Source: Fimbriimonadaceae bacterium (GTDB lineage Bacteria > Armatimonadota > Fimbriimonadia > Fimbriimonadales > Fimbriimonadaceae). From it: 19,632 nucleotides of DNA. The stretch is from assembly GCA_022842565.1 (NCBI GenBank), contig JALHPH010000001.1, positions 1 through 19,632 on the forward strand. The letters are read 5' to 3'. Positions within the stretch are counted from its first letter, which is position 1. Every line of letters begins with the position of its first letter. Shown here one piece after another: positions 1 through 17,122 of this stretch. A model generated the notes under the pieces. The model saw only the letters and a program-made list of their open reading frames with translations, did no database searches and was not told the origin of the DNA. A program made the position numbers and the translations under genes.

Positions 1-145
1 CAAAGAGTGCGACCTCCCGTGCGTGGTGTTCGCCATCAGCAAAGAGGGTGAGTTCGGAGCGGCATGCAGCAACGGCGATTTTGAACTCTGGATCTGCCGC
101 GATGGTGAACTCACAATGACCGTTTACCCCGAGTTGGCACGCTAA
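1..145 (+). CDS. C-terminal end of a probable N4-(beta-N-acetylglucosaminyl)-L-asparaginase (glycosylasparaginase), 5' truncated
   Basis: An open frame enters from the left edge (first full codon at base 2) and stops with TAA at 143-145, leaving 47 residues. The tail contains [15 protein letters not shown], which resembles the last beta-strands of Ntn-hydrolase glycosylasparaginases, where an 'A-x-D/N-x-x-G-x-x-G-A-A-C' strand precedes a short C-terminal hairpin. Members of the family cleave the GlcNAc-Asn bond of glycopeptides or act on isoaspartyl peptides. The catalytic threonine lies outside the window, so the assignment rests on this tail alone. The next gene starts one base after the stop, so the two are probably co-transcribed. 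Another Ntn-type asparaginase is a possible alternative. Confidence 0.5.
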
Positions 146-146
146 G

Positions 147-1994
147 ATGGCACGCCTCATCGGGACCGCCGGCCACGTAGACCACGGCAAAACCAGCCTC
201 ATCCAAGCCCTGACCGGCATTGACGCCGACCGCTTGCCGGAAGAAAAGCGGCGCGGCATGACCATCGACCTCGGATTTGCTTTTCTTGAACTGCCTGGAG
301 TCGGTCAGGTCTCCATCGTCGATGTTCCGGGCCACGAACGCTTCCTCGCCAATATGCTGGTCGGCGCGCTCGGCGTGGATGTGGCGCTGCTTTGCGTCGC
401 CGCCGATGAGGGCCCCAAGCCACAAACCGAGGAGCACCTACGCGTGCTTGATCTGCTCCCCATCGAGTCGATGGTCGTGGCGCTCACCAGGAGCGATCTC
501 GCCGAGCCCGGCGTGCTCGAGCTCAGCACCCTCTTAGTTCGAAACCTGCTAGAGACCACCCGGTTCGGCGACGCCCCCATCGTCCCGGTATCGGCCATCA
601 CCCGCGAGGGGATCCCAGAGCTGCAGGCCGCGCTCACCCAAGCGCTAAGCTCGAAACCCGCCAGCAAGGGCGGAAACTGGTACTTGCCCGTCGACCGCAG
701 CTTCTTGGTCAAGGGTCAAGGCGTGGTCGTGACCGGCACGCTCATGCAGGGTCAGCTCACCGCCGGCGAGCAAGCCGAGCTACAACCCCAAGGCAGCAGC
801 GTGAAAATCAGGGGCGTGCAGCGGCACGAGCACGATGAAAGCGATGCGGAATTCGGCATGCGCACGGCAGTGCGACTCGGCGGCGTGGAGCTAGAAGAAG
901 TGCCGCGCGGTTGCATTCTCGCCAAGCCCGGTACCGCCTTCGCCACGCAGTGCATGGATTTAGCCATCCGTTGGCTTGAGGCCCCAAAGCACATGGAGCG
1001 AGTCCGACTTTCGGTCGGCGCCGACGAAGTGATGGGCCGTCTCATCTTCAACGAGGAGGACCCCGATAACCCGCAAGTGCGCCTGGAACGAGCGACCGCG
1101 GCGGTCACCGGCCAACCGTTTATCCTGCGGAGCTACAGCCCTTCGAGGGTGTTGGGCGGCGGGCGAGTCCGGGTGGTGATGGCCGAGCGTCGCCGAAAAA
1201 ACGAAGACGCCGCCGCCCTCGACCTCAATGCATCCATCGAAGAGAGGGTGGTGGCCGCCATCGCGAATGAACCACGCGGGGTCAAAACCGAGGCGATCTG
1301 CCGGGTCGTCGGCATGACGCCACAACAACTGGGCGACATCTTCGAAGGTCTTCTCGCCGATGGGAGGTTGCTCGGTTTTGCCGGGCTCTGGTTCTCGCCC
1401 GAAGCGTTCAGCGAATCGACCGAGCACCTGGAACGCACGCTCCTGGAATGGCACGCAGCCCACCCCACCGAGTCGGGCGCGCCCCGCGAGATCATTCTAC
1501 GCGAGGCCCGGCTGAACTGGGCCGAGAAACCGCTTAACCGGATCCTCTCCGCTCTCGCTGAGGGGGGCCGCCTCCGCGTAGAAGGCAACAAAATCGCGCA
1601 TGTCGACTTCGCCGTCCAGCTCAACGCGCGCCAAGAAACCCTCCTGCAGCGTGTCGAAGCTGTGCTCAATGCGGCCGGTTTCTCGGTTCCCGGCGTTCGG
1701 ACCCTCACCAGCGAAGTGCACGTCCCCCCGCAGGCCATCGAGGAAATCCTGAAAGTCGGCGTGCAAGCCAAGCGACTGTTGCGGGTCGAGGAGGAGATGT
1801 TCTACACCATCGCCCAACTCGCGGAGGTCCAGCGGATCATTCAAGAAATCGAAGGCAGCTTCTCGGCTTCCGAGTTCAAAGATAAACTTCAAACCAGCCG
1901 CAAGTACGCCATCCCGTTGCTGGAATACTGCGATTCGCGGGGCTGGACCCGGCGGCAAGGCGACGTCCGAGTGGCCGTCCAAAGACCATCATGA
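147..1994 (+). CDS. selB: Selenocysteine-specific translation elongation factor SelB
   Basis: The 615-residue product matches the usual SelB length (about 610). SelB delivers selenocysteyl-tRNA to UGA codons marked by a SECIS element. The GTPase domain shows G1 GHVDHGKT at 9-16, G2 around T39 (RGMTI), G3 DVPGH at 59-63 and G4 TRSD at 114-117. SelB proteins usually have TKxD where EF-Tu has NKxD, so here K is replaced by R. EF-Tu-like beta-barrel domains 2 and 3 follow at about 175-345. From about 365 to 615 come winged-helix repeats, ending with the typical [11 protein letters not shown]...TRRQGD signature of the SECIS-binding end. The ATG at 147 lies one base after the previous stop, and the gene ends in an ATGA overlap with the next start (1991-1994). 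No selA, selD, tRNA-Sec or UGA-interrupted gene is visible here, so the rest of the selenocysteine machinery must lie elsewhere. Confidence 0.95.
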
Positions 1995-2782
1995 GCACAC
2001 CCGAACTCAAAACCCAGCGGCTCTTTGGGCTCGATTTCGTTTCCGAGGCCACGCTTGAAGAAGTTGCGGAAGCCATCCTGCGTCATCCCCGATCTGCGGA
2101 CGCGGACCCGTACGTCATCACGCCCAACGTGGACTACCTGGTGCAGTTTAACAAGCCGGAGCTGCTTGAGACCAGCGCGAAATTCGTTCGCTCTGCGTTT
2201 GTCCTCCCAGACGGCATGCCGATCGTTTGGGCGAGCCGCTGGCTGGGCCGACCGCTGCGCTCCCGCCTCACCGGGGCCGACCTCTTCCCCATCCTCTGGA
2301 AGCGCCTGTGCCAAAGCGGGCGGCGCGTATTGATCGTCGTCGCGAACGCCGAAATCGCCGAAAAGCTCAAGCTGGAGATGCCGAATGTCGTCGCTTACCA
2401 GCCGCCCTTTTATCGCCTCGAAGATACCGCCGCCGTGGAAAAAGTCCACCAAGAGCTGCTGGAAGTAGCGCAGCGCGAACAAACGGAGTTCCTCGTGATG
2501 GGCATTGCAGCTCCCAAGCAGCAGTTTATGACGCTGCACTTGCACCAGCATCTAGGCGACGCGATGCCGCTCACCCTCATGATCGGCGCGAGCATGGAGT
2601 TCTATTTGGGCATGCGTAATCGTGCCCCCGAGTGGATGCGCCGCTCCGGGCTTGAGTGGACCCACCGTTTGGCCATGGAGCCCAAGCGAATGTTTAAGCG
2701 CTACATCATTGATGGCGTGCGTTTTGCGCCGCTGGTCATGCGCGAGCGCCGGTTGCTGGTAAAAGAGCAACGTGAGCGATGA
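1991..2782 (+). CDS. WecG/TagA/CpsF family glycosyltransferase
   Basis: This 263-residue protein belongs to glycosyltransferase family 26, which moves a sugar (for example N-acetylmannosamine or N-acetylmannosaminuronate) onto a lipid-linked intermediate in envelope polysaccharide or teichoic acid synthesis. Family landmarks are TPNVD at 44-48, PDGMPIVW at 73-80 and RLTGADL at 92-98. Thr44 and Asp74 correspond to the proposed active-site Thr and Asp of TagA. The C-terminal block RAPEWMRRSGLEW...RL..EPKRMFKRY is the usual membrane-association appendage. The start overlaps the selB stop as ATGA, which indicates translational coupling to a gene of unrelated function. The acceptor and sugar cannot be read from the sequence. 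It could serve the same envelope polysaccharide as the dehydrogenase and glycosyltransferase at 17123-19465, but that is inference. Confidence 0.9.
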   Translation: MSTPELKTQRLFGLDFVSEATLEEVAEAILRHPRSADADPYVITPNVDYLVQFNKPELLETSAKFVRSAFVLPDGMPIVWASRWLGRPLRSRLTGADLFPILWKRLCQSGRRVLIVVANAEIAEKLKLEMPNVVAYQPPFYRLEDTAAVEKVHQELLEVAQREQTEFLVMGIAAPKQQFMTLHLHQHLGDAMPLTLMIGASMEFYLGMRNRAPEWMRRSGLEWTHRLAMEPKRMFKRYIIDGVRFAPLVMRERRLLVKEQRER

Positions 2783-3812
2783 GATTTCTCGGAGAAGTTT
2801 GATAGTGGGTGGCGCCGCAGCCGCGCTCGGTCTTGCCGTCGGAGCCGCGGCAAAGCCGCTTGGCAAGCCCAAACTTCCGCGCGCACTAAAGCCGGGTGAC
2901 CGCATCGCCATCACCAGTCCTGCGGGCGCTGCCGACGGTCCACAGCACCTCGAATCGGCCAGCGAGAAGATTCGCTCGCTAGGCTGGGAGCCCGTTGTTT
3001 CGAAAAACGCGACGGCCCGCTACGGTTACCTCGCCGGCACCGACGGCCAACGCGCAGAGGACCTCAACACCGCTCTCCGGGACGAGACAATCGCCGGAAT
3101 CCTCTACCTGAGAGGCGGCTATGGCGCGATGCGTATTCTGCCCGCCCTCGACTACGACGCCATGCGCAGACGCCCCATTGTGACCATGGGATTCAGCGAC
3201 ATCACCGCGCTCCATCTGGCGTTCCTAGCGCGTAGCGGCGTCGTGACTTTCCACGGCCCATGCGCGGAATCGCGCTGGAGCGAATTCAGTCGGTCGAGCC
3301 TGCCCATCGTGACAGTGTCGCAGCCGTTTGGAACGGTCCTCCACCCGGTCGAGGGCGGCGCGCCCAAAACGACTCTGGTGCCCGGAAAGGGCCGCGGCCG
3401 TATTGTGGCGGGCAATCTCTCGCTGGTGGTTGCGCTCGCCGGGACGCCCTACCTGCCATCCCTCAAGGGCTGCATCCTTTGCCTTGAAGATATCGGGGAG
3501 GACCCCTACCGAGTGGACCGAATGCTCACCCACCTTCTGCTAACCGGTCAGCTCAAAGACGCCGAAGGCATCATTTTTGGCGATTTCCGCGAGCGGCGTC
3601 GCCCGGGCGAGGAACCCGACAAAACGCCTGCCAACGAGACCTTTAACATGGAGCAGGTCCTTCTGGACCGCTGCCAAGCCATTGGGATACCAGCCTTTTC
3701 GGGGCTGAGCTTTGGGCATATCGGCAACAACCATATCCTTCCTCTGGGAGTAATGGCCACACTCGACGCAGGCGCGAAGTCATTGACTCTAACCGAGTCT
3801 GCCGTCGGCTAG
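2772..3812 (+). CDS. Tat-exported LD-carboxypeptidase, peptidase family S66
   Basis: This 346-residue protein begins at GTG 2772, inside the 3' end of the previous gene (11-base overlap). LD-carboxypeptidases remove the terminal D-Ala from murein tetrapeptides during wall recycling; the MccF branch cleaves microcin C7-type toxins. The N-terminus reads SRRSLIVGG followed by a hydrophobic Ala/Gly-rich stretch to about residue 27, a good twin-arginine signal with R7 and R8. The catalytic triad is visible: Ser142 in GFSD, Glu239 in CLEDIGEDPYRVDR and His316 in LSFGHIGNN. The typical TFHGP segment is at 159-163. The classic enzyme is cytoplasmic, so an exported form would act on the periplasmic side. 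There is no lipobox cysteine after the signal. The stop TAG interlocks with the stop of the convergent gene. Confidence 0.92.
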   Translation: MSDEISRRSLIVGGAAAALGLAVGAAAKPLGKPKLPRALKPGDRIAITSPAGAADGPQHLESASEKIRSLGWEPVVSKNATARYGYLAGTDGQRAEDLNTALRDETIAGILYLRGGYGAMRILPALDYDAMRRRPIVTMGFSDITALHLAFLARSGVVTFHGPCAESRWSEFSRSSLPIVTVSQPFGTVLHPVEGGAPKTTLVPGKGRGRIVAGNLSLVVALAGTPYLPSLKGCILCLEDIGEDPYRVDRMLTHLLLTGQLKDAEGIIFGDFRERRRPGEEPDKTPANETFNMEQVLLDRCQAIGIPAFSGLSFGHIGNNHILPLGVMATLDAGAKSLTLTESAVG

Positions 3813-4405
3813 CCCGAGCCCGCTAAAAACGCAGCCAACCGACGGCGCAGGCGGCGATTGGCCAGCAGCGTGTTGCGCTGCCGAGGTTCCAGAAACAACT
3901 CCTGATAGCCGTCGGGGGTCTGCCAAGTCAGCTGAATCCATCCGCCAAGCAGCACCCAACTATGGACGTTACGGCGCAGTTTGATGCCAACAATGCTGGA
4001 TTGCAGAATCGCATGGCGCGTGAGATCGCCCATGATATGCACTGTATCGCCGTCGCGCCAAATCAGCGCCACTTCCTCATGCGGATCGAGGAGGCTCTGG
4101 AACTTGGGCCGGGCCATTCCCACAAACCAAAGCTCGTCAGGCGCAGTCCCGTACTCGCGCCCATACCGGCGGCCCATCTCGTCGCGCATCAATGCGTTGG
4201 TGCAAAGCCCCAAGAGGTTGAGGCTAATCCAGCCGAAAAGCGGAAAGGCCAGGATCAACCATAGCCCGGGTCCTGAGAACGGATCGTCCACCTTGAACAG
4301 CATGATGCCGATGAACAAGATGGGTAGACTCAGTGCCGCAGGCAGCACATTGCCTAGCCATTGTCGCGATCGGGTCCATACTCGTGGGGTCACCGACGCC
4401 ATCAT
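3809..4405 (-). CDS. Hypothetical two-helix membrane protein with a soluble beta-rich C-terminal domain
   Basis: The 198-residue product (from ATG 4405) is not one I recognise. It has two hydrophobic segments, at about 18-37 and 47-70, then a soluble region. The stretch at about 90-165 (ELWFVGMARP...VALIWRDGDTVHIMGDL...WVLLGGWIQLTW) alternates hydrophobic residues like the beta-strands of a bacterial PH-type or YcxB-like domain, and the C-terminus is Arg-rich. A later GTG at 4391-4393 is in frame and lies 7 bases after TATGAT, so the protein may begin there (194 residues). An open frame continues upstream to 4579 but runs antisense through the N-terminus of the AddB-like gene and is not credible. 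The stop codon shares CTAG with the stop of the convergent LD-carboxypeptidase gene. Confidence 0.7.
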   Translation of the reverse strand: MMASVTPRVWTRSRQWLGNVLPAALSLPILFIGIMLFKVDDPFSGPGLWLILAFPLFGWISLNLLGLCTNALMRDEMGRRYGREYGTAPDELWFVGMARPKFQSLLDPHEEVALIWRDGDTVHIMGDLTRHAILQSSIVGIKLRRNVHSWVLLGGWIQLTWQTPDGYQELFLEPRQRNTLLANRRLRRRLAAFLAGSG

Positions 4406-4406
4406 A
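4401..4406 (-). promoter_or_regulatory. Possible -10 box TATGAT for the minus-strand membrane protein (leaderless-type)
   Basis: On the minus strand TATGAT (4406 to 4401) is followed by 7 bases and then an in-frame GTG (4393-4391). This is the spacing expected when transcription starts at the start codon itself. It overlaps the ATGATG otherwise taken as the start. No clear -35 was identified. Confidence 0.3.
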
Positions 4407-4414
4407 CACCGCTG

Positions 4415-7327
4415 ATGTCGAAAGGCTCTCTCCGAATCCAACGCATCGCCCCCAGGCCAGAGCAATATCAGCACCATGTGCGGGCTTTCGCCAAGAAGGA
4501 AGGGTGGCTGACCGCGCTGCACGAGAGCCAACTGGTCGCGCTCCGTTCGACTCTCGAGCATTTCGACGACGAGGACCAAATTGAGATCATGCCGTTTCCG
4601 GCCATGCTGGGGCGCATCCTGCGGTTCGCTTGCCAGCCGCTGCCGATAATGGCGCGCGATACCGAGGTGCTGGCGCTCCTAGAAGTGCTCTGCGAAGAAC
4701 TACAGCCAGAGAGCCCACTCGGCGCCACTCGCGAGCTCCCCGGCCTGCACGAAGCCCTTCGCCGCACCCTGCGCGAGCTACGCCACTGGCAAGTCTCCCC
4801 TTCGGACCTGCGCCAAGCCGCCTTTTTTGCCGCGCAACCCGATAAGGTTCTGCAAATCGCCGACTTGCATTCCAGTCTGAGCCGAGAGCTCACCGAGCTT
4901 CAGCGCTGCACGTCGACCGAACTCCTGGCCGCCGTGGCGGAGCTTGCCCCGATTCCCGACTTCTCGCCACGGATACTTATCCTTTGCGGCGAAGAGCCCC
5001 TTCCCGACCTCCTCGCCTCGATCCCATGCCTGGTCAAGCTCGGCGCGCGGATTGAGCTGCTTTGCGATGCGGTCGCGCCCACTCCGGCATACCGTGCCAA
5101 CTTCGAAGCGGTCCTCGGAAAACCGCTCCCGCCAGCACCCGAGCCGAGTTGGATTCATCAGGTTTTTGAGGAAGCACCAGACTCCAGCCTGCAGCATCCG
5201 CAAATCCGTACTTTCAGCGTGCCCGATCCGGTCGCGGAAGTCAATTGGGCGCTGCGCGCGTGTCTGCGTGCGCGATCCGAAGGGATCCTCGAACACAGGA
5301 TGGGCATCGTGGTGCCCGACCGCGATCTCTACGTCCCGCTCCTCATCGCCGCCTCGCCCCGCTTCTTGGGCGATGGCGACGGAAGCGGCCGCCCGGTTCT
5401 GGACGCACGGCTTCCAATGCCGCTGCTCGCCAACGGTTTTTGTGCCCTCGTGCTGCAATGCCTCAAGGCTCTCGGCCATGACGACATCCGGGAGATTCCC
5501 AAGCTGATGGCGTCCAGCTACTTCCGGTTAGCCCCGGATCACCAGCAGGAACTGCGGCGACAGTGCCAATTGCTGCTCAACGGCCCAAACGAGACCTGGG
5601 CGGGCCTAGAGGCCTGGGTGGCTGGAGCAGCCGAAGAATTTGCGCCCCTGGTCGCGCTGCTTGAATGGCGAAAGCAGGCGTCGGTGCAGCCGATCACGCT
5701 CGCCGCCTGGCACGCCGAGCTTGCGAGGTTCACCCGGCTCGAAATCTTTACCGAACGACTCAACCGGCGCGACGACTGGCATGCCGATGCCGACCGGGGC
5801 GCTGTGACTGCCCTTCTGCGTTCGCTCGGCGGATACGCGGCGGTGATGTCGGCCAAGGGGTCTGCGGCCCTCAACCTGCGCGCCTTTGCCCTCCTCGCCG
5901 AGCGCGTTTGGCAACGGGAAGAGACCGCCGTGCCAACCCGCCGCCACGGCATTCGGGTGGTTTCCAGTGCCCAAGAGCTAGGCGTTGTGGACCTTGTCAT
6001 CGTGCTCAACGCGGTGGAGGGCGTCTACCCGCGCCGCCGCAGCGAGGACCCGATCCTCTTTGATAGCGACCGAGCCGCGATCCGTGAGCTGAAGTCTCAC
6101 GCTGTAGAGATCCCCGACTCGCACACGCATGCCGCCGAGCAACGTCCAGGGTTCCTGCGGCTGTGCGCGGCGGCCCGAACCCGGCTCGTGTTCATGGTCC
6201 CCCGGATGAGCGGCGATCGGCAGGCGATCAGGTCGGGCTTCGTGGAGGACGTGCTCCGCGCCTATCCGGAGAGCGAACAAGTCGAGATTCTAGGTTCGCA
6301 AATCGTGCCCGACCGGGCGAACTGCCTCGTGACCCAAGACCTAGAAATCCGCGAGGCGCTGGATGGCCCGCGCCACGTGCCCGAGCGCCCGTCGCTTCAC
6401 CTTGAGGAGAGCCGGGCCATGGTCCGGCCTGCGTTCGAAGAAGGTGTTTCCTACAAAGTCCTCTCGATCGCCCGCGAGTGCCCCTTCCGCGCCGTCGCCA
6501 ACAAAATGCTGGGGTTGGCTCCCAATGGTCCTTCTCAAAAGCATCTGAGCCTGCTTTTCCGCATTGCCCAAGAAGCAAACTTGTTTAACCTCGACACGCT
6601 TGAAATGGCTCCGGAGGCGCTCAGCCACGCCACCAAAAACGCTCTCGCCGAGCTTTCTACCGAAGTCGACAGCACCGAACTGAAGCTACTTCAAAGCATC
6701 CTGGAGGAGGCCATAGACAAGCTGCTGGCGAACGAGCGGGATGCCCGCGACTACTGGCAGCCCCATCCTGTTTCGAAGGGCCGTACCCGGCTCGGCGACG
6801 TGGCGACCCGCTCGCAAATCACGATTGCGGGCCAGCCCATCACGCTCAGCGGGACAGTCGATGGCGTCGCCGAGATTCGCGACAAGAAGACGCTGCGATT
6901 CTATACTCAGTCCACTCAGCTCACCGGAAAAGACCCCATCAAGCCGGACAGCCGCTACTGGATCGAGGTGATGCTGCTGCTCTGCACCATGCTGAGTAAG
7001 GACCAACGCGATGTCGCCCTAGAGTTTCAGTCGCTGCGAGGGGGTCGAAAGCTGATCGTCTTGAACGACAGCACCGGTTCTGCCGGCGTGGCCAAAAAGG
7101 GTGAAGATCTGCTCACCGAAATCATCCCGCTCCGTGACGTGCGCGACGTCGGGATTCAGGAAATGAAGAAGCTCCTGGTCGCCAGTGTCGAAGATCTGAA
7201 AGCCGGCCACATGCAACCCAAACGCGGCGAGCACTGCGAACGCTGCAACCTGGGTGAGCTTTGCCGGTATTCGCAGGCGCTGGTCGAGGACCACCTTGGC
7301 CCGGCCATGGCGGAGGGTGCAGAATGA
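4415..7327 (+). CDS. AddB-like helicase/nuclease subunit with iron-sulfur staple but degenerate nuclease and P-loop
   Basis: This 970-residue protein (ATG 4415) resembles AddB, partner of the AddA helicase in double-strand-break end processing. The family N-terminus aligns from the first residues: RIQRIAPRPEQYQ sits where AddB has its GxxGSGKT P-loop, and EIMPFPAMLGRIL matches the following 'v-x-s/t-F-x-x-L-x-x-x-i-L' segment, which supports this start. The middle carries MGIVVPDRDLYVPL and VVDLVIVLNAVEGVYP, typical of inactivated SF1 folds in AddB. The C-terminal domain has Cys689 (ECPFRA) and Cys941, Cys944, Cys950 (CERCNLGELC), the CxxCx5C staple binding 4Fe-4S. The PD-(D/E)xK core keeps GTVDG (Asp816), but the DYKT-like strand reads FYTQ (829-832), so the second acidic residue and the lysine are missing. 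An upstream ATG at 4361 would add 18 residues overlapping the divergent gene. The stop overlaps the next start as ATGA. Confidence 0.8.
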   Translation: MSKGSLRIQRIAPRPEQYQHHVRAFAKKEGWLTALHESQLVALRSTLEHFDDEDQIEIMPFPAMLGRILRFACQPLPIMARDTEVLALLEVLCEELQPESPLGATRELPGLHEALRRTLRELRHWQVSPSDLRQAAFFAAQPDKVLQIADLHSSLSRELTELQRCTSTELLAAVAELAPIPDFSPRILILCGEEPLPDLLASIPCLVKLGARIELLCDAVAPTPAYRANFEAVLGKPLPPAPEPSWIHQVFEEAPDSSLQHPQIRTFSVPDPVAEVNWALRACLRARSEGILEHRMGIVVPDRDLYVPLLIAASPRFLGDGDGSGRPVLDARLPMPLLANGFCALVLQCLKALGHDDIREIPKLMASSYFRLAPDHQQELRRQCQLLLNGPNETWAGLEAWVAGAAEEFAPLVALLEWRKQASVQPITLAAWHAELARFTRLEIFTERLNRRDDWHADADRGAVTALLRSLGGYAAVMSAKGSAALNLRAFALLAERVWQREETAVPTRRHGIRVVSSAQELGVVDLVIVLNAVEGVYPRRRSEDPILFDSDRAAIRELKSHAVEIPDSHTHAAEQRPGFLRLCAAARTRLVFMVPRMSGDRQAIRSGFVEDVLRAYPESEQVEILGSQIVPDRANCLVTQDLEIREALDGPRHVPERPSLHLEESRAMVRPAFEEGVSYKVLSIARECPFRAVANKMLGLAPNGPSQKHLSLLFRIAQEANLFNLDTLEMAPEALSHATKNALAELSTEVDSTELKLLQSILEEAIDKLLANERDARDYWQPHPVSKGRTRLGDVATRSQITIAGQPITLSGTVDGVAEIRDKKTLRFYTQSTQLTGKDPIKPDSRYWIEVMLLLCTMLSKDQRDVALEFQSLRGGRKLIVLNDSTGSAGVAKKGEDLLTEIIPLRDVRDVGIQEMKKLLVASVEDLKAGHMQPKRGEHCERCNLGELCRYSQALVEDHLGPAMAEGAE
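7312..7316 (+). promoter_or_regulatory. Shine-Dalgarno GGAGG fixing the start of the AddA-like helicase
   Basis: GGAGG lies 7 bases before the ATG at 7324. It is one of the few textbook ribosome sites in the window. It selects 7324 over the longer in-frame start at 7261, which would lie inside the cysteine motif of the upstream gene. Confidence 0.7.
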
Positions 7328-9558
7328 ACTTGCTGGATTCCCTGACCGCCGAACAACGTGCCGCGGTTGAGTTCGATGGCCCGCGATTGATGCTGCGAGC
7401 CTCGGCGGGGTCGGGCAAAACCCGCGTCTTGACCGCACGCTACCTGCGTCACGTGGTGCAAGACGGCATCTCGCCCGATTCGATCTTGGCCATCACGTTC
7501 ACGACCCGAGCGGCTACTGAAATGCGGCGGCGCATTGTCGAACAGCTCCGTGCGGAGGGTCTGAAGGACCAAGCCCAGCTTGCAGAAACCGGACCCATTT
7601 CGACCATCCACAGTTTCTGCGAAAGGTCGCTTCGCGAGAATGCGCTAGCCGCGGCGCTCGACCCGGAATACTCGGTGATGCCCAGCGACCAAGTGGCCCT
7701 GCTCCGAGAAGAGATTCTGCTGGACGAGATTTCGCTGAACCACCACGACTCGCCCGAAATCGAGATGTTTCTGAAGGAGTACGCGGGCAAAGTGAGCTTT
7801 GGCGGAGGGCCCCTGGTGCATGACGAAATTGCCCGCCGCGTGAACCACATCATGGATTCGTTGCGCGGCACTCTGTGGACTACGGACCACCTGGGGCGCC
7901 GCTATCTCTCGGCGGAAACCCTGGCCGAAGCGTACTTAACTGCGATGGCGGGCGATCCCAAACCCCACTCCAAGTTCGCATTGCAATGGGAAAATGCGAC
8001 CAAGAAAAAGGAAGAGCCGTACCGGGGCTTTCAGATCACTTGCGGCGCGGTGCAGCTCGCGATCCGGGTCTGGCGGCGCCTGGAGTCGCGCCTCAAACGG
8101 CTCTACCAATTGGATTACAACCTGCTTGAATCGATGCTTCTGAGGCTGCTGGAGAGCGACACCCTCACGGCCAAACGACTGCGTGACCAATACCAGGTGG
8201 TTTTGGTGGACGAAGCGCAAGACCTCAACCCCGTTCAGTACCGCCTTTTAGAAGAGCTCGATCCGCATCAAATGATGCTGGTCGGCGACCCGCAGCAAAG
8301 TATCTACGGTTTCCGCAACGCCGATAGCGAGCAGTTTGTTCGTCGCACGCGCATCACCCCCACGCTTGCGCTGACCACAAACTTCCGGAGCGAATCGGAG
8401 GTGCTGCGAATGGTGGATGCCGTCTTCGCCGAGCGTTGGGGCGAGGACTACTCGCCGATGCAAGCCCGGCCCGATGCGCTCAAAGGATCAGCGGCCACCT
8501 GGGCATTCCCCGAGCGCGATTCGCACGGCTTGGCCGAGCTCGTACGGGCGGTGGTTCAAGATAACGCTCTGGGTCTGCCGATCCCGCCGCGCTACTCCGA
8601 CATCGCGATCCTCACGCGTAACAAGACTCACAGCCAGATGTACGTGACCGCCATGCGGAAGCTGAGCGTCCCGGTGCGGCATGAGGGCAGCAAGCGCTTT
8701 TATGCCCGAATGACCCTGCGCGATGTGGCGAACACACTTGAAGCCGCCGCCCGCCCGAACAGCGATTTCGCGCTCTTGTGCACGCTCCATTCCCCCATCG
8801 GCGGGCTCTCGCTCGATAGCGTTATTCAGCTCGCCGTGAAGGCCAAGGCTGCGGGCACTTCAGTCCGCGCGGCATGCTCCACGTTTGAGTGCCCAACCGC
8901 TGAGGACGCAGATGCACTGGCGCGGTTCCTAGCTTGGTTTCTGCCTGCCTGTGAGGAGGCCGACCGCATTCGCGCCTGGGAGCTCATTGGCAAAATTCTT
9001 CATCACTCGCCGCTGCAAATCCAAATCGCGAGGCTCCCAGATGCCCCGCTGGAAGTGGCGAACCTCAACAAGCTGCTCATCATGGCCGTCAACCAGCCCA
9101 CGGCGACCCCGATCGAGTTTGCCGACCAACTCCGCAAAGTCCTGATGCTCCGGCACGAAGAAGAGGACGCCGACTGGAGCAGCCAATCGGAAGAAAGCGT
9201 GACCCTGATGAACGTCCACCAGTCCAAAGGGCTGGAATTCCCGCTCGTCATCATCCCCTCGGTGCACGAGAACATCCGGAAAGTCCGCTCGTCCGGCAGC
9301 CTCGTTCACCGCGGACTTGGCCTCGTGCACGTGGGCAAACTTGAGCACTCCATGGCCTCGAAATGGTTGAAAGACCGGGTGGCCGACGAGGGCTCCGCCG
9401 AAGAGCAGCGTGTGCTCTACGTCGCCATGACTCGCGCGGAAAAGGGCCTGCTCATTGGCACGGCGATGAAGCCCAGCAGTTGGGGCAAGCTGGTCCATGA
9501 ATCGTTGGAAGCGCTCGCGCCGGATCGCGGCTTTCCAAAATGGCAGCAGCCCGAATGA
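7324..9558 (+). CDS. AddA-like UvrD-family (SF1A) DNA helicase lacking the C-terminal nuclease domain
   Basis: This 744-residue protein should unwind DNA ends 3' to 5' with the AddB-like partner. All SF1 motifs are present: Walker A ASAGSGKT at 26-33, motif Ia AITFTTRAATEM at 56-67, TIHSFCE at 94-100, Walker B VLVDEAQD at 293-300, motif III GDPQQSIYGFR at 321-331, motif IV TTNFRS at 351-356, motif V VTLMNVHQSKGLEF from 626, and motif VI EEQRVLYVAMTRAE from about 693. Bacterial AddA is normally about 1,200 residues and ends with a PD-(D/E)xK nuclease. This protein ends only about 35 residues after motif VI, and the next gene starts at once, so no nuclease domain is present or hidden by a late frameshift. 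The ATGA overlap (7324-7327) with the AddB-like gene argues for a complex. A plain PcrA/UvrD-type helicase is the alternative, but the partner and the GLEFPLVII block favour AddA. Confidence 0.85.
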   Translation: MNLLDSLTAEQRAAVEFDGPRLMLRASAGSGKTRVLTARYLRHVVQDGISPDSILAITFTTRAATEMRRRIVEQLRAEGLKDQAQLAETGPISTIHSFCERSLRENALAAALDPEYSVMPSDQVALLREEILLDEISLNHHDSPEIEMFLKEYAGKVSFGGGPLVHDEIARRVNHIMDSLRGTLWTTDHLGRRYLSAETLAEAYLTAMAGDPKPHSKFALQWENATKKKEEPYRGFQITCGAVQLAIRVWRRLESRLKRLYQLDYNLLESMLLRLLESDTLTAKRLRDQYQVVLVDEAQDLNPVQYRLLEELDPHQMMLVGDPQQSIYGFRNADSEQFVRRTRITPTLALTTNFRSESEVLRMVDAVFAERWGEDYSPMQARPDALKGSAATWAFPERDSHGLAELVRAVVQDNALGLPIPPRYSDIAILTRNKTHSQMYVTAMRKLSVPVRHEGSKRFYARMTLRDVANTLEAAARPNSDFALLCTLHSPIGGLSLDSVIQLAVKAKAAGTSVRAACSTFECPTAEDADALARFLAWFLPACEEADRIRAWELIGKILHHSPLQIQIARLPDAPLEVANLNKLLIMAVNQPTATPIEFADQLRKVLMLRHEEEDADWSSQSEESVTLMNVHQSKGLEFPLVIIPSVHENIRKVRSSGSLVHRGLGLVHVGKLEHSMASKWLKDRVADEGSAEEQRVLYVAMTRAEKGLLIGTAMKPSSWGKLVHESLEALAPDRGFPKWQQPE

Positions 9559-9562
9559 TCGG

Positions 9563-9568
9563 TACACT
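9563..9568 (+). promoter_or_regulatory. Possible -10 box TACACT for the nitrilase-family gene (leaderless-type)
   Basis: TACACT, a TANNNT-type -10 element, ends 7 bases before the ATG at 9576. There is no Shine-Dalgarno sequence between them. This would allow a leaderless transcript independent of the upstream helicase gene. No -35 is obvious, so confidence is low. Confidence 0.3.
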
Positions 9569-9575
9569 TGGCGGC

Positions 9576-10436
9576 ATGTCGCAGTACCGTCTGGCGAGCG
9601 TTCAGTTCGCACCGAACAAAGCAAAGGTGCCCGAGAACCTGGCCCGGATTGGAGAGCTGGCGGTCCAAGCGAGCGAATCGGGTGCAGACGTCGTTCTGTT
9701 CTCGGAATCGGCTGCATGCGGATACTTCCTTGAAGGCGGCGTGCTCGAGTGCGCGCTTTCAGTCGATCAACTCGCTGCAGGATTGAACCCTCACTTGCAA
9801 GGGCTAACTCGCCCGACGGATCTGATCGTCGGCTTTTACGAACGCCACAACGAGACCCTCCACAATAGCGCAGCGTATCTGGCGTGGGACAACGGCACGC
9901 TGAAGCCCGTCCAGGTCTATCGCAAGTTCTTTTTGCCCACCTACGGAGTGTTCGATGAGAATCGCTTTGTAGCCCCGGGCAATGAAGTCGCGGTCTTTGA
10001 GACGCGCTTTGGCACCGCCAGCATCCTCATCTGCGAGGATGTCTGGCACTCGATCCTGCCCATGCTCGCAGCGCTGCGCGGGGCCGAAATCCTCTATGTG
10101 CCGATAGCCTCGCCCGCGCGTGGTTTTCAGCAACATGAACCGGCGAATGTCGAGCGTTACGCCCGACTGTTGCGCGCCATTGCCGAAGAGCACGGCGTGT
10201 ATGTGGCGAGTTCAATGCTGCTTGGCTTTGAGGGCGGCAAGGGTTTCGCAGGTGGCGGCTGCATTTTTGACCCAGAGGGCGTTGAGCTGGCGACTAGCCC
10301 TACGCAAGAAGAGCACATCCTTTTGGCGGACGTGGACCGAAACCGCGTGACCCAAGCCCGCGCTCACTTGCCCCTACTAAGCGACCTACGCGACCGATGG
10401 GCCACGCTGCTCAAGCTTGGTGAAGAGGTCCTTTAA
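9576..10436 (+). CDS. Carbon-nitrogen hydrolase (nitrilase superfamily), NAD-synthetase glutaminase-like
   Basis: The 286-residue product carries the catalytic Glu-Lys-Cys triad: Glu44 in VVLFSES, Lys117 in YRKFFLPTYGVFDENR and Cys153 in ILICEDVWH. Such enzymes hydrolyse amides or nitriles through a cysteine thioester. The KFFLPTYGVFDENRF segment is closest in style to the glutaminase domain fused to NAD synthetase, but no synthetase domain is attached, so the substrate is unknown. The chosen ATG at 9576 gives the usual family start (YRLASVQFAP). An in-frame ATG at 9555 would overlap the helicase stop as ATGA and add 7 residues, and cannot be excluded. It lies 17 bases after the helicase gene, but no functional link to it is evident. 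Its TAA stop interlocks with that of the convergent gene. Confidence 0.88.
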   Translation: MSQYRLASVQFAPNKAKVPENLARIGELAVQASESGADVVLFSESAACGYFLEGGVLECALSVDQLAAGLNPHLQGLTRPTDLIVGFYERHNETLHNSAAYLAWDNGTLKPVQVYRKFFLPTYGVFDENRFVAPGNEVAVFETRFGTASILICEDVWHSILPMLAALRGAEILYVPIASPARGFQQHEPANVERYARLLRAIAEEHGVYVASSMLLGFEGGKGFAGGGCIFDPEGVELATSPTQEEHILLADVDRNRVTQARAHLPLLSDLRDRWATLLKLGEEVL

Positions 10437-11224
10437 GCTTTCGGAGCCCGAACAAAAATGAGCTCTTGGCTCAGCTTGCTCATGGCGGCGCTGACCAGCT
10501 TGCCTGGGTCGCCCTCGTCCTCTTGCGGCAGACCGAAGAGCACGTAGTCGGCGGGTACTTCCTCGATGGCGGACAGCACTGCGGCCGCCGAGTCACGACC
10601 TCGAGCCACTCGCATGGAGTGCGCCACGCGCTTCTGAATCATGATGCCCTCTGCCTTCTCAAGTGAGTTCTTTGCCTCGGCTTCGATGGCCGGCAACGGC
10701 GCATTGATCGGCATCTCGCGCGGCACCGTGATAGGATACAGCAGGTGGACTTGGGTGCTCAGGCCCTCGGCCAGTTGCACGGCGGTCTCCAGCAGGTACT
10801 GATCGCACCGCGTGCCCGAAAGGCAAACCAGTAAGTGCTTCTCGTACTTGTGTTTGCTGGCCTTGTGGTCCTCTTTCGCGCTTTCGCCGTCGGTGAGTAA
10901 GTAGAGCGAGTTCCGGGCTTCTTCCAGCGTCGGAGCCATCGGCAGCTGCGAGCGCACATCCGGCACGTTCTTCACGATCTCCAGAAGCGGCTTGGGCAGC
11001 GCGGCCACAATCACTCGGGCATCGTGGTGAGCCAAGAACTGCATGACGTGATAGAAGGTGTCGGCACCCGCCTCATTCATTTCAGAGAGACCGCTACAAT
11101 CGATCACCACTCCCTCGGGGTGGCGCTGCAACTGCAGCGAGAGCGCGGTGTGGAGCGTGCTCCACTGGTTGTTGACCAATGCTCCAGAAAGCAGGACAAC
11201 GTCTTCGTAAGATTCAACAATCAT
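10433..11224 (-). CDS. Two-domain STAS and universal stress protein (USP) fusion, probable transporter regulator
   Basis: This 263-residue soluble protein starts at ATG 11224, overlapping the transporter stop as ATGA. Residues 1-110 form a STAS domain (VVIDCSGLSEMNEAGADTF), the fold of anti-sigma-factor antagonists and of SulP transporter tails. The conserved D-S-S-G loop here reads N-E-A-G (50-53), so the phosphorylatable serine position is Glu51. Residues 128-263 form a USP domain (HLLVCLSGTRCDQYLLETA, VARGRDSAAAVLSAI, ADYVLFGLP). Its G-x2-G-x9-G-[ST] nucleotide loop is poorly kept, so ATP binding is doubtful. Translational coupling to the KimA-like gene suggests that it regulates or stabilises that transporter, which is inference. 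A longer frame to 11323 overlaps the transporter and is unlikely. The TAA stop shares TTAA with the nitrilase stop. Confidence 0.8.
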   Translation of the reverse strand: MIVESYEDVVLLSGALVNNQWSTLHTALSLQLQRHPEGVVIDCSGLSEMNEAGADTFYHVMQFLAHHDARVIVAALPKPLLEIVKNVPDVRSQLPMAPTLEEARNSLYLLTDGESAKEDHKASKHKYEKHLLVCLSGTRCDQYLLETAVQLAEGLSTQVHLLYPITVPREMPINAPLPAIEAEAKNSLEKAEGIMIQKRVAHSMRVARGRDSAAAVLSAIEEVPADYVLFGLPQEDEGDPGKLVSAAMSKLSQELIFVRAPKA

Positions 11225-13131
11225 TTTAAGTAGTGCCTCACGTTGGTAATCACCACGCGTTTGCGAGCGCCAAGCGCAGCCTTCAGCGGGATGGCGGCAT
11301 TTGTGTGCAGCAATCGATGCCACAGCCTTCGGGGAACGGACTCCGGCACGATCACGGTTACGAACACCTCAGGGTCCTCTGAGAGTGTTTGCTCCACGTA
11401 ATCGATGATGGGGCCGACCAGCGAGCGGTAAGGGCTCTCTAGGATCACTAACGGCATTTCTTGTCCGTGCTTCACCCAGTCCTCCTTCACTTTCGCCACC
11501 GTCTTGGGGTCGATGGTCACGTGCAGGGCGCGTACGTCTTCGCTCAGCGCGCGGGCATAGGAGATCGCGTTCAGGATGCCACGGTGAACTCGCGGGACCA
11601 AGAGCAGCGTCACCGTGCGAGCCGGCAGAACCTTGTCTTCCGGCGTAATTTCAAGTTCTCGGGCCAGATAGCGGTAGTGCCGCTGAATGGCGAGCATCAT
11701 ACTGAGCACGAGCGGCACAGCAATGAAAACCACCCATGCGCCGGCTGTCCATTTGCTTACCGCAATGACGACTGTGATGATCAGAGTGATTGTTCCGCCG
11801 AAGAAACTCACTGCTTGAGTGGCCAGCGACTTCTTATCCTTGCGTTGGTGAACCACCATGCCGAACTGGCTGAGGGTGAAGGAAGCAAAAACGCCAATGG
11901 CGTAAAGCGGGATGAGCTTGGAAGTATCGCCGCCGAACTTCACAATAAGGAGGCACGACGTGACCGCAAGGATGATGATGCCGTTTTGGTACACCAATCG
12001 GTCGCCGACGACGGCCAATTGCCGCGGCAGGTAGTTGTCACGCGCGATGATGCTGGCGAGCCGTGGAAAGTCGGCATAGGCCGTGTTAGCAGCCAAAATC
12101 AAGATGCCCGCCGTGGCGAACTGCATGGCGGTGAAGTAGCCCACGCCAAAGCTCGTGTTCTGCGGAAAGGTCGCTTGCGTGATCATTGCGACCACGGTCT
12201 TGAAACCGGGTTCGCCAAACTCCATCGGGATGATGTGGAACTTCTCGGCGAGGTAGCTACCGCCCACGAAGAGGAAAGACAGGATGCCGGCCATCCACCA
12301 CAGTGTGATGGCAGCGTTACGTGATACCGGCTCTTTGAACGCCTGAGTGCCGTTTGAGATGGCTTCGATGCCGGTGAGAGCCGTACAACCAGAGGAGAAC
12401 GCCTTGAACCCAATCAGAATCCAGGCCCAACCTATCAGTTCAGTCGGGTTTGGAGCAACTCGCTTAAGTTCCTCGGTTGCCAGCGCAACCTCGGGTGGGG
12501 CTGGGTGGCCGGCTGCAAAGAAGGTTCCGTACACGATCAGCGTGCCAAAGAGCAGGACGAACGTATACGTCGGGATGCTGAACAGCGCGCCGCTCTCCTT
12601 CGCGCCTCGAAGGTTGGCGATGGTGATGAGCAGGATGAAAAAACAGTTGAGATGTAAAACGTACGGCTGCAACTGGGTATTGAACGAAATCAGCGCCAAC
12701 ACACCAGCCGAGACCGACACCGCCACGGTCAAGATGTAGTCGATGAGCAGCGAAGCACCGGCCAAGCGACCCGGCCAAGTGCCCAGGTTCTCTTTCGCGA
12801 CCGTATACGATCCGCCGCCACCGGGGTAAGCCTTGATGGTCTGCGAATAGCTGAGCGAAACGATGACGATCAGGATACAAATCAGGATCGCGATGTTAAA
12901 CGTTTGACTCAGGAACGCATAGCCCAGCGACATCGAGATACCGCCCGCCATAAACTTGGGCGAGACATGCAGAAACGTCCGCATGATCTCTTCGGTGGCA
13001 TACGCCGTGGACGAAAGCGCGTCCGATGCGAAAACCGGGAGCGCAACCCGCTTGGGAAGTCGCTCTTGATGGGCGTGTTTCGACGCAATCGGCTTGCCAA
13101 AAACAGCCTCTTTTAGCTTTCCAAAATTCAT
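11221..13131 (-). CDS. KimA-like potassium importer (APC/KUP superfamily)
   Basis: This 636-residue membrane protein has about twelve hydrophobic helices up to roughly residue 485 and a soluble C-terminal domain of about 150 residues. It closely resembles Bacillus KimA (YdaO), a proton-coupled high-affinity potassium importer inhibited by c-di-AMP. The substrate-site residues I recall from KimA have counterparts at matching spacings: Asp37 and Tyr44 in SDALSSTAY, Asp132 and Thr136 in IDYILT, and Thr254 and Glu257 in LTGIEA. YPGGGGSYTVAKENLG at 103-118 is the family signature. The C-terminal region (PARTVTLLLVPRVHRGI...) is the cytoplasmic part that in KimA dimerises and binds c-di-AMP. The gene follows nagA by 21 bases without a ydaO riboswitch-sized leader, so such control at RNA level is absent here. 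No ribosome site is clear. Confidence 0.88.
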   Translation of the reverse strand: MNFGKLKEAVFGKPIASKHAHQERLPKRVALPVFASDALSSTAYATEEIMRTFLHVSPKFMAGGISMSLGYAFLSQTFNIAILICILIVIVSLSYSQTIKAYPGGGGSYTVAKENLGTWPGRLAGASLLIDYILTVAVSVSAGVLALISFNTQLQPYVLHLNCFFILLITIANLRGAKESGALFSIPTYTFVLLFGTLIVYGTFFAAGHPAPPEVALATEELKRVAPNPTELIGWAWILIGFKAFSSGCTALTGIEAISNGTQAFKEPVSRNAAITLWWMAGILSFLFVGGSYLAEKFHIIPMEFGEPGFKTVVAMITQATFPQNTSFGVGYFTAMQFATAGILILAANTAYADFPRLASIIARDNYLPRQLAVVGDRLVYQNGIIILAVTSCLLIVKFGGDTSKLIPLYAIGVFASFTLSQFGMVVHQRKDKKSLATQAVSFFGGTITLIITVVIAVSKWTAGAWVVFIAVPLVLSMMLAIQRHYRYLARELEITPEDKVLPARTVTLLLVPRVHRGILNAISYARALSEDVRALHVTIDPKTVAKVKEDWVKHGQEMPLVILESPYRSLVGPIIDYVEQTLSEDPEVFVTVIVPESVPRRLWHRLLHTNAAIPLKAALGARKRVVITNVRHYLK

Positions 13132-13152
13132 TAGTGGGGGACCAGAGGTTGC

Positions 13153-14199
13153 TTAGAGAGCACTCGCATCGAACAACTCAACTACTTGCCACTGATCATC
13201 CCAAAGCACGTACCGACGGGCATTAATATGAGACCTCAGCGCCAATCGAGGATTATGACAGCAAGCTCTGATCGCGCATTCGGGACCGAAGTCCTCAGCC
13301 AAGTTGCGGAAGGCGTCAGCCAACGTGATGGCGCTGCCCGCAAGCGCGCCATTGCTCTTTAATCGCACTTCGCGCTTGCCCACATCCACCGGATGCCCCC
13401 ACATCGTGAGCGCCGTCCCTTTGGGCAGGCCGGTGGCGGCGGTGCTGTCGCTTACCGCGATCACGCCGTCCAATGGCTTGATCTTCAAAAGAAGAGCGGC
13501 GGCATCGCGCACCACATGCAGCCGGTCATAGATCAGCTCGCAGCGCAAGCCGGGTTGGTGCAGCGCGTAGCCAACCGTGCCCGCCTCACGATGGTGAAGC
13601 CCCCGCATCGCATTGAACGTGTGCGTGGTGTGGGTTGCCCCGAATTCAAATCCGCGACGGGCCTCCTCGTAGGTGGCGTTGGTATGGCCAATGCTCACAA
13701 TCACGCCTCGCGTTTGTAGCCGCAGGATCATTTCAAGCGCATGAGGCCGCTCGGGAGCCAGCGTGACGATCCGTAAGCGCGGGTCGTCCAAAATGTCATC
13801 CCATTCGCTATCGCCATACGGGATATCGGCGATATGCTCGGGCGGCTGCGCGCCAGGGAACTCTGGCGAGAGGAACGGGCCCTCCAGGTGGAAGCCAGGC
13901 ATCATGGGGTGATCGGGCAATTGCTTGAGCGCCGACCGGATCGCATCCGCGGGTCCGGTGATGGTGGTCGGCAAGAACGCCTCATACCCTTCGGCGGCAA
14001 GCCTCTCGGCCAGGTAGACCATGTCCCGCGCGTCGGCTGACATCCAGTCCACGCCAAAAGCACCGTGGATGTGAAGGTCGATCAATCCGGGTGTGAGTAC
14101 GCCTCGCGGCGATTCGTGAACGCGGGAGAAAGCCCCGTCCTCGTATCGGTAGCTTCCGTACCCTTCCAGGCCCAACATCGTATACACGCCGTCCATCAC
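13153..14199 (-). CDS. nagA: N-acetylglucosamine-6-phosphate deacetylase
   Basis: This 348-residue amidohydrolase removes the acetyl group from GlcNAc-6-phosphate in amino-sugar and murein recycling, in the cytoplasm. Visible landmarks are DLHIHG (His43, His45), FHLEGPFL with metal ligand Glu106, IGHTNATYEEA (His172), HTTHTFNAM (His190, His193), the substrate segment LHHREAG at 201-207, and the catalytic Asp251 in VSDSTAATG. At 348 residues it is slightly shorter than the usual 380 or so. The start is either GTG 14199 (GTGA overlap with the dprA stop) or ATG 14196, one codon later. No nagB, nagK or GlcNAc transporter is nearby, so it may serve wall recycling, possibly with the exported LD-carboxypeptidase at 2772. 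That link is inference. Confidence 0.92.
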   Translation of the reverse strand: MMDGVYTMLGLEGYGSYRYEDGAFSRVHESPRGVLTPGLIDLHIHGAFGVDWMSADARDMVYLAERLAAEGYEAFLPTTITGPADAIRSALKQLPDHPMMPGFHLEGPFLSPEFPGAQPPEHIADIPYGDSEWDDILDDPRLRIVTLAPERPHALEMILRLQTRGVIVSIGHTNATYEEARRGFEFGATHTTHTFNAMRGLHHREAGTVGYALHQPGLRCELIYDRLHVVRDAAALLLKIKPLDGVIAVSDSTAATGLPKGTALTMWGHPVDVGKREVRLKSNGALAGSAITLADAFRNLAEDFGPECAIRACCHNPRLALRSHINARRYVLWDDQWQVVELFDASAL

Positions 14200-15239
14200 T
14201 GCTTGGCATACCCCATCCCGTCGCGAAAGATGAGCCCGGCCAGCTCCATTTCGGTCAGGTGCACCATCACATCAGCCGACGCCAATCCGGTGCGCTCGAT
14301 CAGTTGTTCCGGACCCAGGCACTCCGTCGCCAGGATCTCGAGAATCTGGATTTGCGCCGGGTCGTTCAACTCGGCCTCCTCGGCGGCTACGGGCTCCAAA
14401 CCAAGAGCTTCCAGCACCTGATCGGGATGGGCCACGAGGGTCGCGCCATCGCGGATGAGCGCATGCGAACCGCGGTACCCAGGGTGGGTGATGTTCCCCG
14501 GCACGACCAGAACGGGCTTGTTGAATTCGGCAGCTGCGCCGGCTGTGATGAGCGCGCCCGAACGCTCCGGCACCTCGATCAGAAGCACGACGTCGGACAT
14601 CGCCGCAATTGTGCCGTTCCGAATCCGGAACATGTAATCCTTGCACCGGGTGCCCATCGCGAATTGGCTGACCAGGCATCCGCCGCCGGTGACCATGCGG
14701 TTGAATAGCGGTCGGTTCATGGCTGGGTACGGCTCATCGAGGCCGCCGGCCAAGACGGCGACCGTGCGGCCACCACCCAGAAGCGCGCCTTCGTGGGCGC
14801 AAGCATCGATTCCCAGTGCGCCGCCACTGACAATGCTGATGCCCTGCCTGGCCAGTGTCTCGGCAAACTTCTGAGCAATCGCCTTGCCGTACGTGGAGGG
14901 GCTCCGGGTTCCAACGATGCCGACCGTCGGACCGCGAAGGGCTTCCAGACTTCCCGAAGCAAACAGAGCCGGGGTCGCCAGTGAAAACCTGAATTCGGTA
15001 CCCTCTGATTCTTCACCGGAGAGCAAATGCGATCCCTCACGCATCGCTTTTTCATAGGCGACCATGTTGACGGCTTGGAGCCTGCGCCTTTCTGCATCGG
15101 TGGACATCGGCGCACGGCCCAGCGCGAAAATTGGGTCTAAGCCGCTCTCGCGCACGTACTCCACCAAGCGCTGAGCCCGGTGCGCTGGCATTTCCATCGA
15201 AAGAAGATGCTGCCAGAAAACCGGGCTCAGTGAACTCAC
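14196..15239 (-). CDS. dprA: DNA-processing protein DprA (DNA uptake, RecA loading)
   Basis: DprA protects incoming single-stranded DNA and loads RecA during natural transformation. With the GTG start at 15239 the product is 347 residues. It has an N-terminal helix-hairpin-helix/SAM-like region (1-60), a Rossmann-like core with GIVGTRSPSTYG (107-118), SGGALGIDACAHEGAL (138-153) and RIRNGTIAAMSDVVLLIE (205-222), and a C-terminal winged-helix (DML1-like) domain from about 290. GTG is preferred because it begins the recognisable N-terminal domain just after the previous gene's stop (15259). An upstream ATG at 15356 would put 39 residues inside the preceding gene. No Shine-Dalgarno sequence is visible. 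Its presence hints that the organism may be competent, but no com genes are in view. The stop overlaps the nagA start. Confidence 0.92.
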   Translation of the reverse strand: MSSLSPVFWQHLLSMEMPAHRAQRLVEYVRESGLDPIFALGRAPMSTDAERRRLQAVNMVAYEKAMREGSHLLSGEESEGTEFRFSLATPALFASGSLEALRGPTVGIVGTRSPSTYGKAIAQKFAETLARQGISIVSGGALGIDACAHEGALLGGGRTVAVLAGGLDEPYPAMNRPLFNRMVTGGGCLVSQFAMGTRCKDYMFRIRNGTIAAMSDVVLLIEVPERSGALITAGAAAEFNKPVLVVPGNITHPGYRGSHALIRDGATLVAHPDQVLEALGLEPVAAEEAELNDPAQIQILEILATECLGPEQLIERTGLASADVMVHLTEMELAGLIFRDGMGYAKQ

Positions 15240-15258
15240 GCGTGCTTGAATAAGGAGT

Positions 15259-16818: not shown

Positions 16819-16847
16819 CGGTTCAACTTCCAGGTCGATTACCGGGC

Positions 16848-16853
16848 AGTATA
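16848..16853 (-). promoter_or_regulatory. -10 box TATACT of the minus-strand unit (propeller, dprA, nagA, KimA-like, STAS-USP)
   Basis: On the minus strand TATACT is a near-consensus -10 hexamer 29 bases upstream of the ATG at 16818. No convincing TTGACA-like -35 lies at 16-18 bases. It sits in the 105-base gap between this gene and the divergent tRNA, and is the only good promoter-like signal found for the five genes downstream. Confidence 0.5.
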
Positions 16854-16923
16854 TCCCTCTGCCCAGTTTCTTGCCTTCTCCCCATAGACGCACGAAGTTG
16901 GGATCGGGTATCAATAGCAAGCC

Positions 16924-17000
<77 letters not shown>

Positions 17001-17100: not shown

Positions 17101-17122
17101 AAAAAGTAGTGCGTTCAGAATC

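Follow-up and report, generated by a model that had tools for sequence, protein, structure and literature searches.

In a member of the family Fimbriimonadaceae (phylum Armatimonadota), the gene pair that encodes an AddAB-like DNA-end helicase appears to represent a whole bacterial branch in which both nuclease sites of the enzyme have been lost while the two-protein end-opening motor has been kept. The pair lies at positions 4415–9558 of a stretch of 19,632 nucleotides (assembly GCA_022842565.1, contig JALHPH010000001.1, positions 1 to 19,632 of the forward strand; hereafter the window). As read from the translated genes, AddA retains its motor motifs without a nuclease domain, and AddB retains its predicted fold and four cysteines with neither a P-loop nor the nuclease motifs. 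An initial annotation of the window had proposed that both active sites are gone, and this is supported by aligned orthologues, by phylogenetic trees and by the structure predicted for AddB.

Eighty AddB-bearing regions were fetched and their proteins aligned. Motif counts refer to 79 of 81 AddB proteins, namely 43 from the own family (Fimbriimonadaceae, f1) and its sister family (f5), among them two near-duplicate pairs, and 36 from other families; G061, which is cut by a contig end, and G145, whose C-terminus does not align, were dropped. These counts come from a genome set because searches of AddB protein databases gave only 3 and 22 proteins; a further genome scan added one distant locus. 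Since the window genome (1.7 Mb in 272 contigs) is only 70% complete, statements on absence rest on its relatives. AddB was found in 57 of the 61 nearest-relative genomes, the own one included, and in 154 of 251 genomes across the phylum. The same pattern in 43/43 f1/f5 AddB rules out a sequencing error or a one-genome oddity. The features of the pair are as follows (f1/f5 against other families where two counts are given).

4415–7327 (+): AddB-like subunit, 970 amino acids, no P-loop, nuclease motifs lost, iron–sulfur (Fe-S) cysteines kept
6446–7267 (+): degenerate PD-(D/E)xK (PDDEXK_1) domain, AddB residues 678–951 (PF12705, 25.7 bits)
6479–6481 (+): codon of putative Fe-S cysteine C689 (C in 43/43 against 36/36)
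6569–6571 (+): lost nuclease motif H, here Q719 (H in 1/43 against 35/36)
6860–6865 (+): nuclease motif G-x-x-D-R, D816 kept and G817 in place of R (D in 16/43 against 36/36; R in 0/43 against 36/36)
6899–6907 (+): F829-Y830-T831 replacing catalytic D-Y-K (D in 3/43 against 35/36; K in 1/43 against 34/36)
6965–6967 (+): lost nuclease motif Q, here E851 (Q in 0/43 against 35/36)
7235–7264 (+): putative Fe-S cysteines C941, C944 and C950, CxxCx5C (each C in 42/43 f1/f5)
7324–7327 (+): ATGA shared by the AddB stop codon and the AddA start codon, read from the sequence
7324–9558 (+): AddA-like superfamily 1 (SF1) helicase, 744 amino acids, without C-terminal nuclease domain (UvrD-helicase 6.1e-57, UvrD_C 4.1e-26)
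7399–7422 (+): AddA Walker A, ASAGSGKT (G31, K32 and T33 invariant in 27/27 aligned AddA)
9421–9438 (+): AddA motif VI, VAMTRA (T703, R704 and A705 invariant in 27/27 aligned AddA)
9439–9555 (+): AddA tail, 39 residues (289–389 residues in canonical AddA of the phylum)

The AddA-like protein had been described as carrying every SF1 motif and ending some 35 residues after the last. All SF1A motifs are indeed present (ASAGSGKT 26–33, VDEAQD 295–300, GDPQQSIYGFR 321–331, TTNFRS 351–356, QSKGLEF 633–639 and VAMTRA 700–705), and the chain ends at residue 744, 39 residues past motif VI, with no C-terminal PD-(D/E)xK nuclease; a Pfam search of AddA found UvrD helicase domains only and no nuclease family. 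Where the motif VI pattern matched, 28–69 residues follow it in f1–f5 and 58–99 in f6, f12 and f28, against the several hundred of canonical AddA; the pattern missed about one third of the rows, including all of f8, whose AddA frames run to 916–948 amino acids. One f12 genome (G182) has a long AddA, with 292 residues past motif VI, plus a frame of 915 amino acids, and one f1 AddA (G028) is split in two frames. Among the best 120 of 7180 database proteins close to AddA, lengths range from 732 to 813 and none is tagged PF12705; their source names are mostly Fimbriimonadaceae, Fimbriimonas and Armatimonadetes, with a few Chthonomonadaceae/Chthonomonas, so that the depositors' taxon labels are not uniform.

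The family models for the AddAB helicase-nuclease do not reach their cut-offs on either protein: the best NCBIfam model for AddA, addA_Gpos, scores 239.7 bits under an equivalog cut-off of 707.65, with pcrA next, and AddB has no NCBIfam match at E 0.1. The test is weak because canonical AddA of the phylum also falls under the addA_Gpos cut-off (398.3). In the tree, in which three UvrD/PcrA rows served as outgroup, AddA groups with AddA, and the tree and model scores together argue against a PcrA or UvrD. Judged by anatomy, the pair is expected to behave as the motor half of AddAB, yet the nuclease features that define AddA and AddB are missing.

For AddB, the residues singled out in the initial annotation are all in place (C689, D816 within GTVDG at 813–817, F829-Y-T-Q832, and C941, C944 and C950), and its motif alignment by eye is borne out by a profile–profile alignment of f1/f5 against nuclease-competent AddB C-termini, in which F829-Y-T831 falls on D-Y-K. 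AddB is predicted to fold like Bacillus AddB: the predicted structure is AddB-type, with a helicase-like N-terminal part and a C-terminal RecB-nuclease fold (strands at 807–812, 817–821 and 824–831, helix at 847–859), so the fold appears to be retained. The sole Pfam match of AddB is a weak PDDEXK_1 hit over the C-terminus (cut-off 22 bits). Within this domain the RecB-family nuclease motifs (H, E, D-R, D-x-K and Q) survive at 0–3 of 43 f1/f5 proteins except for D816; besides the positions listed above, E at 790 is found in 1/43 against 33/36 in other families and D at 819 in 0/43 against 35/36. D829 (G027, G020 and G031) and K831 (G028) never occur together in one f1/f5 protein. As to the conservation of FYTQ, which had been suggested as a check, the residues that replace the motifs vary from genus to genus; what all 43 share is the absence of the D-x-K pair.

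The four cysteines span the AddB C-domain as putative ligands of an Fe-S cluster, and the one f1/f5 row that misses C941, C944 and C950 has masked bases at its end, giving a gap in the alignment. In a published description, this domain class has four nuclease-linked motifs and four strictly conserved cysteines (PMC7430649), a combination that has come apart here, with cysteines retained and catalytic motifs lost. By pattern, the P-loop is found in 0/43 f1/f5 AddB against 25/38 elsewhere, its loss having begun already in f2, where 2/8 keep it. The E129-R629 pair, given as the latch of Bacillus subtilis AddAB (PMC4824097), is mostly kept in f1/f5 when mapped by hand on the printed alignment (E121 in 36/43 and R553 in 34/43).

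Two further comparisons with B. subtilis AddB come from printed alignments. In the crystallised protein the stretch aligned to the nuclease site reads IVAYK, with an alanine at 961 that we take to be the engineered D961A change, for which a literature search yielded no support. Its Chi-contact residues are presumably R70 and W73, and the equivalents, placed by hand, are kept neither in the window AddB nor in a competent relative, which makes this comparison uninformative.

That AddB holds a nuclease centre built from displaced residues is very unlikely. The initial annotation had named DKKT at 823–826 as such a candidate, the window does keep D816, and the PF12705 match exceeds its cut-off. 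A [DE]xK near the site occurs, however, in only 6/43 f1/f5 AddB (window included) with no shared column, the 67% identical AddB P0002 has GKHT where the window has DKKT, and of the nuclease motifs the residues H, E, R, Q and the second D are left in 0–1/43. Still less credible is the view of the two genes as decaying remnants. The genus-to-genus variation of the motif-replacing residues is what would be expected after relaxation, but the open frames are long (the split AddA of G028 aside), the cysteines stand at 42–43/43, the motor residues are invariant in the 27-row AddA alignment (window plus 26 of 35 AddA), and many frameshifted or missing copies are not seen among complete genomes. Both genes are kept in nearly all f1/f5 genomes and also in genomes of 1.5 Mb. 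The dead AddB domain has conserved residues of its own in f1/f5, and two close pairs show purifying selection on it, with ratios of non-synonymous to synonymous substitution rates (dN/dS) of 0.04 and 0.09; both genes are under purifying selection where this is measurable.

Trees for AddA and AddB, obtained by quick searches without bootstrap, suggest that the nucleases went in two steps. The 30 short AddA proteins form one clade (Shimodaira–Hasegawa-like approximate likelihood ratio support 94). Its sister is a group of 13 canonical AddA (96), and outside both lie two more canonical rows and the three UvrD/PcrA rows. For the AddB tree the nuclease part was left out and 75 of 81 AddB were used; f1 and f5 are united there in one clade (99), nested in a larger group (98) together with f2, f3 and f4, whose AddB is competent. 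Two f19 rows on long branches attach beside it, a placement that we distrust. In the sampled rows f2, f3, f4, f6, f8, f12 and f28 combine a short AddA with a competent AddB and thus represent an intermediate state. The trees suggest that the AddA nuclease was lost in the wider clade and the AddB nuclease later in f1/f5. An exception among the competent f12/f28 relatives is the AddB of Chthonomonas calidirosea (G081; L126 5411–8701, −), in which H is replaced by R, K by T, Q by R and Y by M, with D816-R-x-D and four cysteines retained; by its motifs this is apparently a second, separate nuclease loss, in a cultured species. A further AddB alignment of 36 rows comprised P0002, P0003, the window and 33 of the first 40 regions fetched; the other seven were omitted as cut, masked, near-duplicate or otherwise awkward copies.

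The initial annotation had recommended a search for other nucleases. RecJ was found in 58/61 genomes and RecO in 59/61, and RecC (PF04257) in 0/61, the model having matched E. coli among 14 control genomes, which speaks against a RecBCD elsewhere in these genomes. SbcD exceeded its cut-off in 1/61 genomes, or 28 in total with weaker matches. The RecJ, RecO and RecC counts are compatible with the proposal that the pair depends on a separate nuclease or serves as a scaffold. PDDEXK_1 matched in 61/61 genomes, nearly all through a stand-alone frame of one kind, a few with fragments only. This stand-alone Fe-S PD-(D/E)xK nuclease, of which the own copy (G000:C88:2714-3478; L153 2705–3499, +) has 264 amino acids and intact motifs, is related to the Argonaute-associated Cas4-family ACE proteins and matched in 34/34 f1 genomes of the phylum sample.

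It is possible, if rather doubtful, that this Cas4/ACE-like nuclease is the cutter in trans that replaced both lost domains. Its G132, D135, R136, D149, Y150, K151 and four cysteines are invariant in 16/16 aligned copies, and full-length matches (E 1e-57 or better) occur in 60/64 genomes with short AddA against 5/42 with canonical AddA, classes set by hand from frame lengths with partial AddA matches omitted and G182, which has both kinds, counted as short. The short AddA form one clade, however, so this correlation is a single evolutionary contrast, and the nuclease is also present in 27 further genomes without an AddA match at 1e-60. Nor does it track the AddB loss: it occurs in f2 and f3, where AddB is competent, and it predates the death of AddB. 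Its neighbours in L153, as judged by eye, are not repair genes, and in a domain tree with 13 of the 16 proteins (G022, G040 and G041 not included) it forms a separate clade on a long branch, with no sign of an excised AddA domain.

Set beside known systems, the pair differs from the AddAB (RexAB) of B. subtilis in that both PD-(D/E)xK nucleases are gone, AddA being without the domain and AddB having the fold without nuclease motifs or P-loop. The loss of the AddA nuclease alone is already known: six Wolbachia strains of isopods have a premature stop that deletes the whole AddA nuclease domain, and the authors of that report foresee little effect, pointing to studies in which repair continues to function (PMC4224334). 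Their AddA is likewise without the domain; that loss is recent, at strain level, restricted to AddA and set in a shrinking endosymbiont genome, whereas the loss here is ancient, spans several families and was followed by that of the AddB nuclease. RecC is a relative whose nuclease is dead, and an AddB-to-RecC transition has been proposed (PMC1185551); unlike in RecC of RecBCD, the Fe-S cysteines stay here and the motor partner is also without nuclease. E. coli RecB1080CD is a processive helicase without nuclease for which RecJ cuts and RecFOR serves RecA loading (PMC3375238); it is described there as a laboratory mutant, whereas we propose a wild-type state of two families in an AddAB-type enzyme. 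For the mycobacterial AdnAB, structure titles name D934A (AdnA) and D1014A (AdnB) mutants, which we read as active sites, while AddB here has neither P-loop nor nuclease motifs. The Argonaute-associated Cas4 family protein ACE1 (9iac) is single-domain and not in this operon. An AddAB with both nucleases lost was not found in the literature searched, a weak negative as subscription papers were mostly outside it.

The explanation that we favour, and consider probable, is an AddAB-descended DNA-end helicase without a nuclease of its own, for which cutting is done in trans, probably by RecJ. AddA would pull on the 3' strand and unwind the DNA from a break, and AddB would be a RecC-like inert collar whose Fe-S-stapled dead domain holds the duplex end and guides one strand; the 5' strand would fall to a nuclease acting in trans, RecJ being the likeliest, and RecA loading would be aided by RecFOR. 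The whole scheme would correspond to the 'hybrid' pathway of E. coli recB1080, fixed here by nature, and RecJ is preferred because just this combination, a RecB-type helicase with a dead nuclease working alongside RecJ and RecFOR, has been described for that mutant (PMC3375238). The two nucleases of B. subtilis AddAB divide the strands between them, that of AddA taking the 3' strand and that of AddB the 5' strand (PMC4824097). From these strand roles, the first step, loss of the AddA nuclease, would have left the 3' strand uncut and made the enzyme permanently post-Chi-like, and the second, loss of the AddB nuclease, would have outsourced 5' cutting.

A different role, in which the pair no longer resects breaks and acts as a translocase that binds ends or remodels forks, AddB being the scaffold, is improbable in our judgement. 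It would accord with two conserved subunits of which neither has a recognisable cutting site, and with the own conserved residues of the dead domain; the largely kept latch pair fits an AddAB-like strand path, however, and no RecC was found in the 61 genomes. An anti-phage defence system was also considered and rejected, as no specific PADLOC model was matched: there were no models for AddB, and AddA gave 54 families at E 0.001, of which the 25 listed are models of GajB and RTasHel helicases, a result that we take as general SF1 similarity.

Several observations weigh against a nuclease-free pair served by RecJ. D816 is kept in 16 f1/f5 proteins and D829 in three, and the estimate of selection on the dead domain rests on two close pairs only, a third pair being saturated with an unreliable dN/dS of 0.241 for the C-terminus. 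The two genes are unlinked in 2/42 f1/f5 loci. Almost all of the 61 genomes have RecJ and RecO, whether or not AddB is competent, and finding them is therefore no specific pointer to either; nearly every one of these genomes also has the intact stand-alone nuclease. Five f1 genomes have extra long open reading frames (ORFs) with PDDEXK_1 matches (2029 amino acids in G031, 1032 in G015, 1244 in G012, 1227 in G018 and 1134 in G016) and may thus hold extra helicase-nucleases, one of these ORFs (L171) having D-Y-K. Finally, RecB1080CD with RecJ is described as less efficient than RecBCD (PMC3375238).

The 2029-amino-acid ORF of G031 (L171 3977–10063, −) contains GSGKT and two PDDEXK_1 matches, which perhaps makes it a fused helicase-nuclease; the dead AddAB is also present in this genome. 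In G038 a second pair of ORFs, of 1056 and 1041 amino acids (L169 3983–7150 and 7137–10259, −), each with D-Y-K and a PDDEXK_1 match, stands beside the short-AddA system.

Around the pair, the ATGA overlap that had been taken as a sign of its maintenance as a unit is present in the window and not general, the exact overlap occurring in 7/39 adjacent f1/f5 addB-addA pairs. Directly after AddA lies a carbon-nitrogen hydrolase (9540–10436, +), with a homologue behind AddA in 26/42 fetched f1/f5 loci, all of them f1 and 24 on the same strand. It is a conserved yet unexplained operon partner of AddA, and its identity rules out the third operon gene as the missing nuclease. Just upstream of AddB is a divergent gene for a membrane-like protein without Pfam match (3809–4579, −), with an opposite-strand homologue in 32/42 f1/f5 loci, all f1, and 0/38 other loci. 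The window also encodes the selenocysteine elongation factor SelB (147–1994, +) and the recombination mediator DprA (14196–15356, −).

AddAB and RecBCD are the textbook helicase-nucleases, in which Chi control is control of cutting, and a two-step nuclease loss with motor and Fe-S cysteines under purifying selection is a natural experiment in which cutting is separated from the binding and unwinding of ends. This points to a structural role of the Fe-S cluster that persists after catalysis is lost, and it offers a living parallel to the proposed AddB-to-RecC transition (PMC1185551). A further warning concerns automatic annotation, whose labels (PDDEXK_1, 'ATP-dependent helicase/nuclease') imply a nuclease although none seems to remain. 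Taken together, we give about equal weight to accepting and to doubting that f1 and f5, including the cultured Fimbriimonas ginsengisoli, mend double-strand breaks with a naturally nuclease-free AddAB. This would be a permanent helicase-only state in which ends are opened yet not degraded by the motor, with no cutting for Chi to restrain and the 5' strand left to RecJ (or the stand-alone Fe-S nuclease); the dead AddB domain would be a RecC-like Fe-S-stapled DNA collar reached independently, and C. calidirosea a second arrival. The cutting step of break repair would then fall to some other enzyme, and whether a nuclease-free motor drives bacterial break repair in the wild is a question now testable in cultured species.

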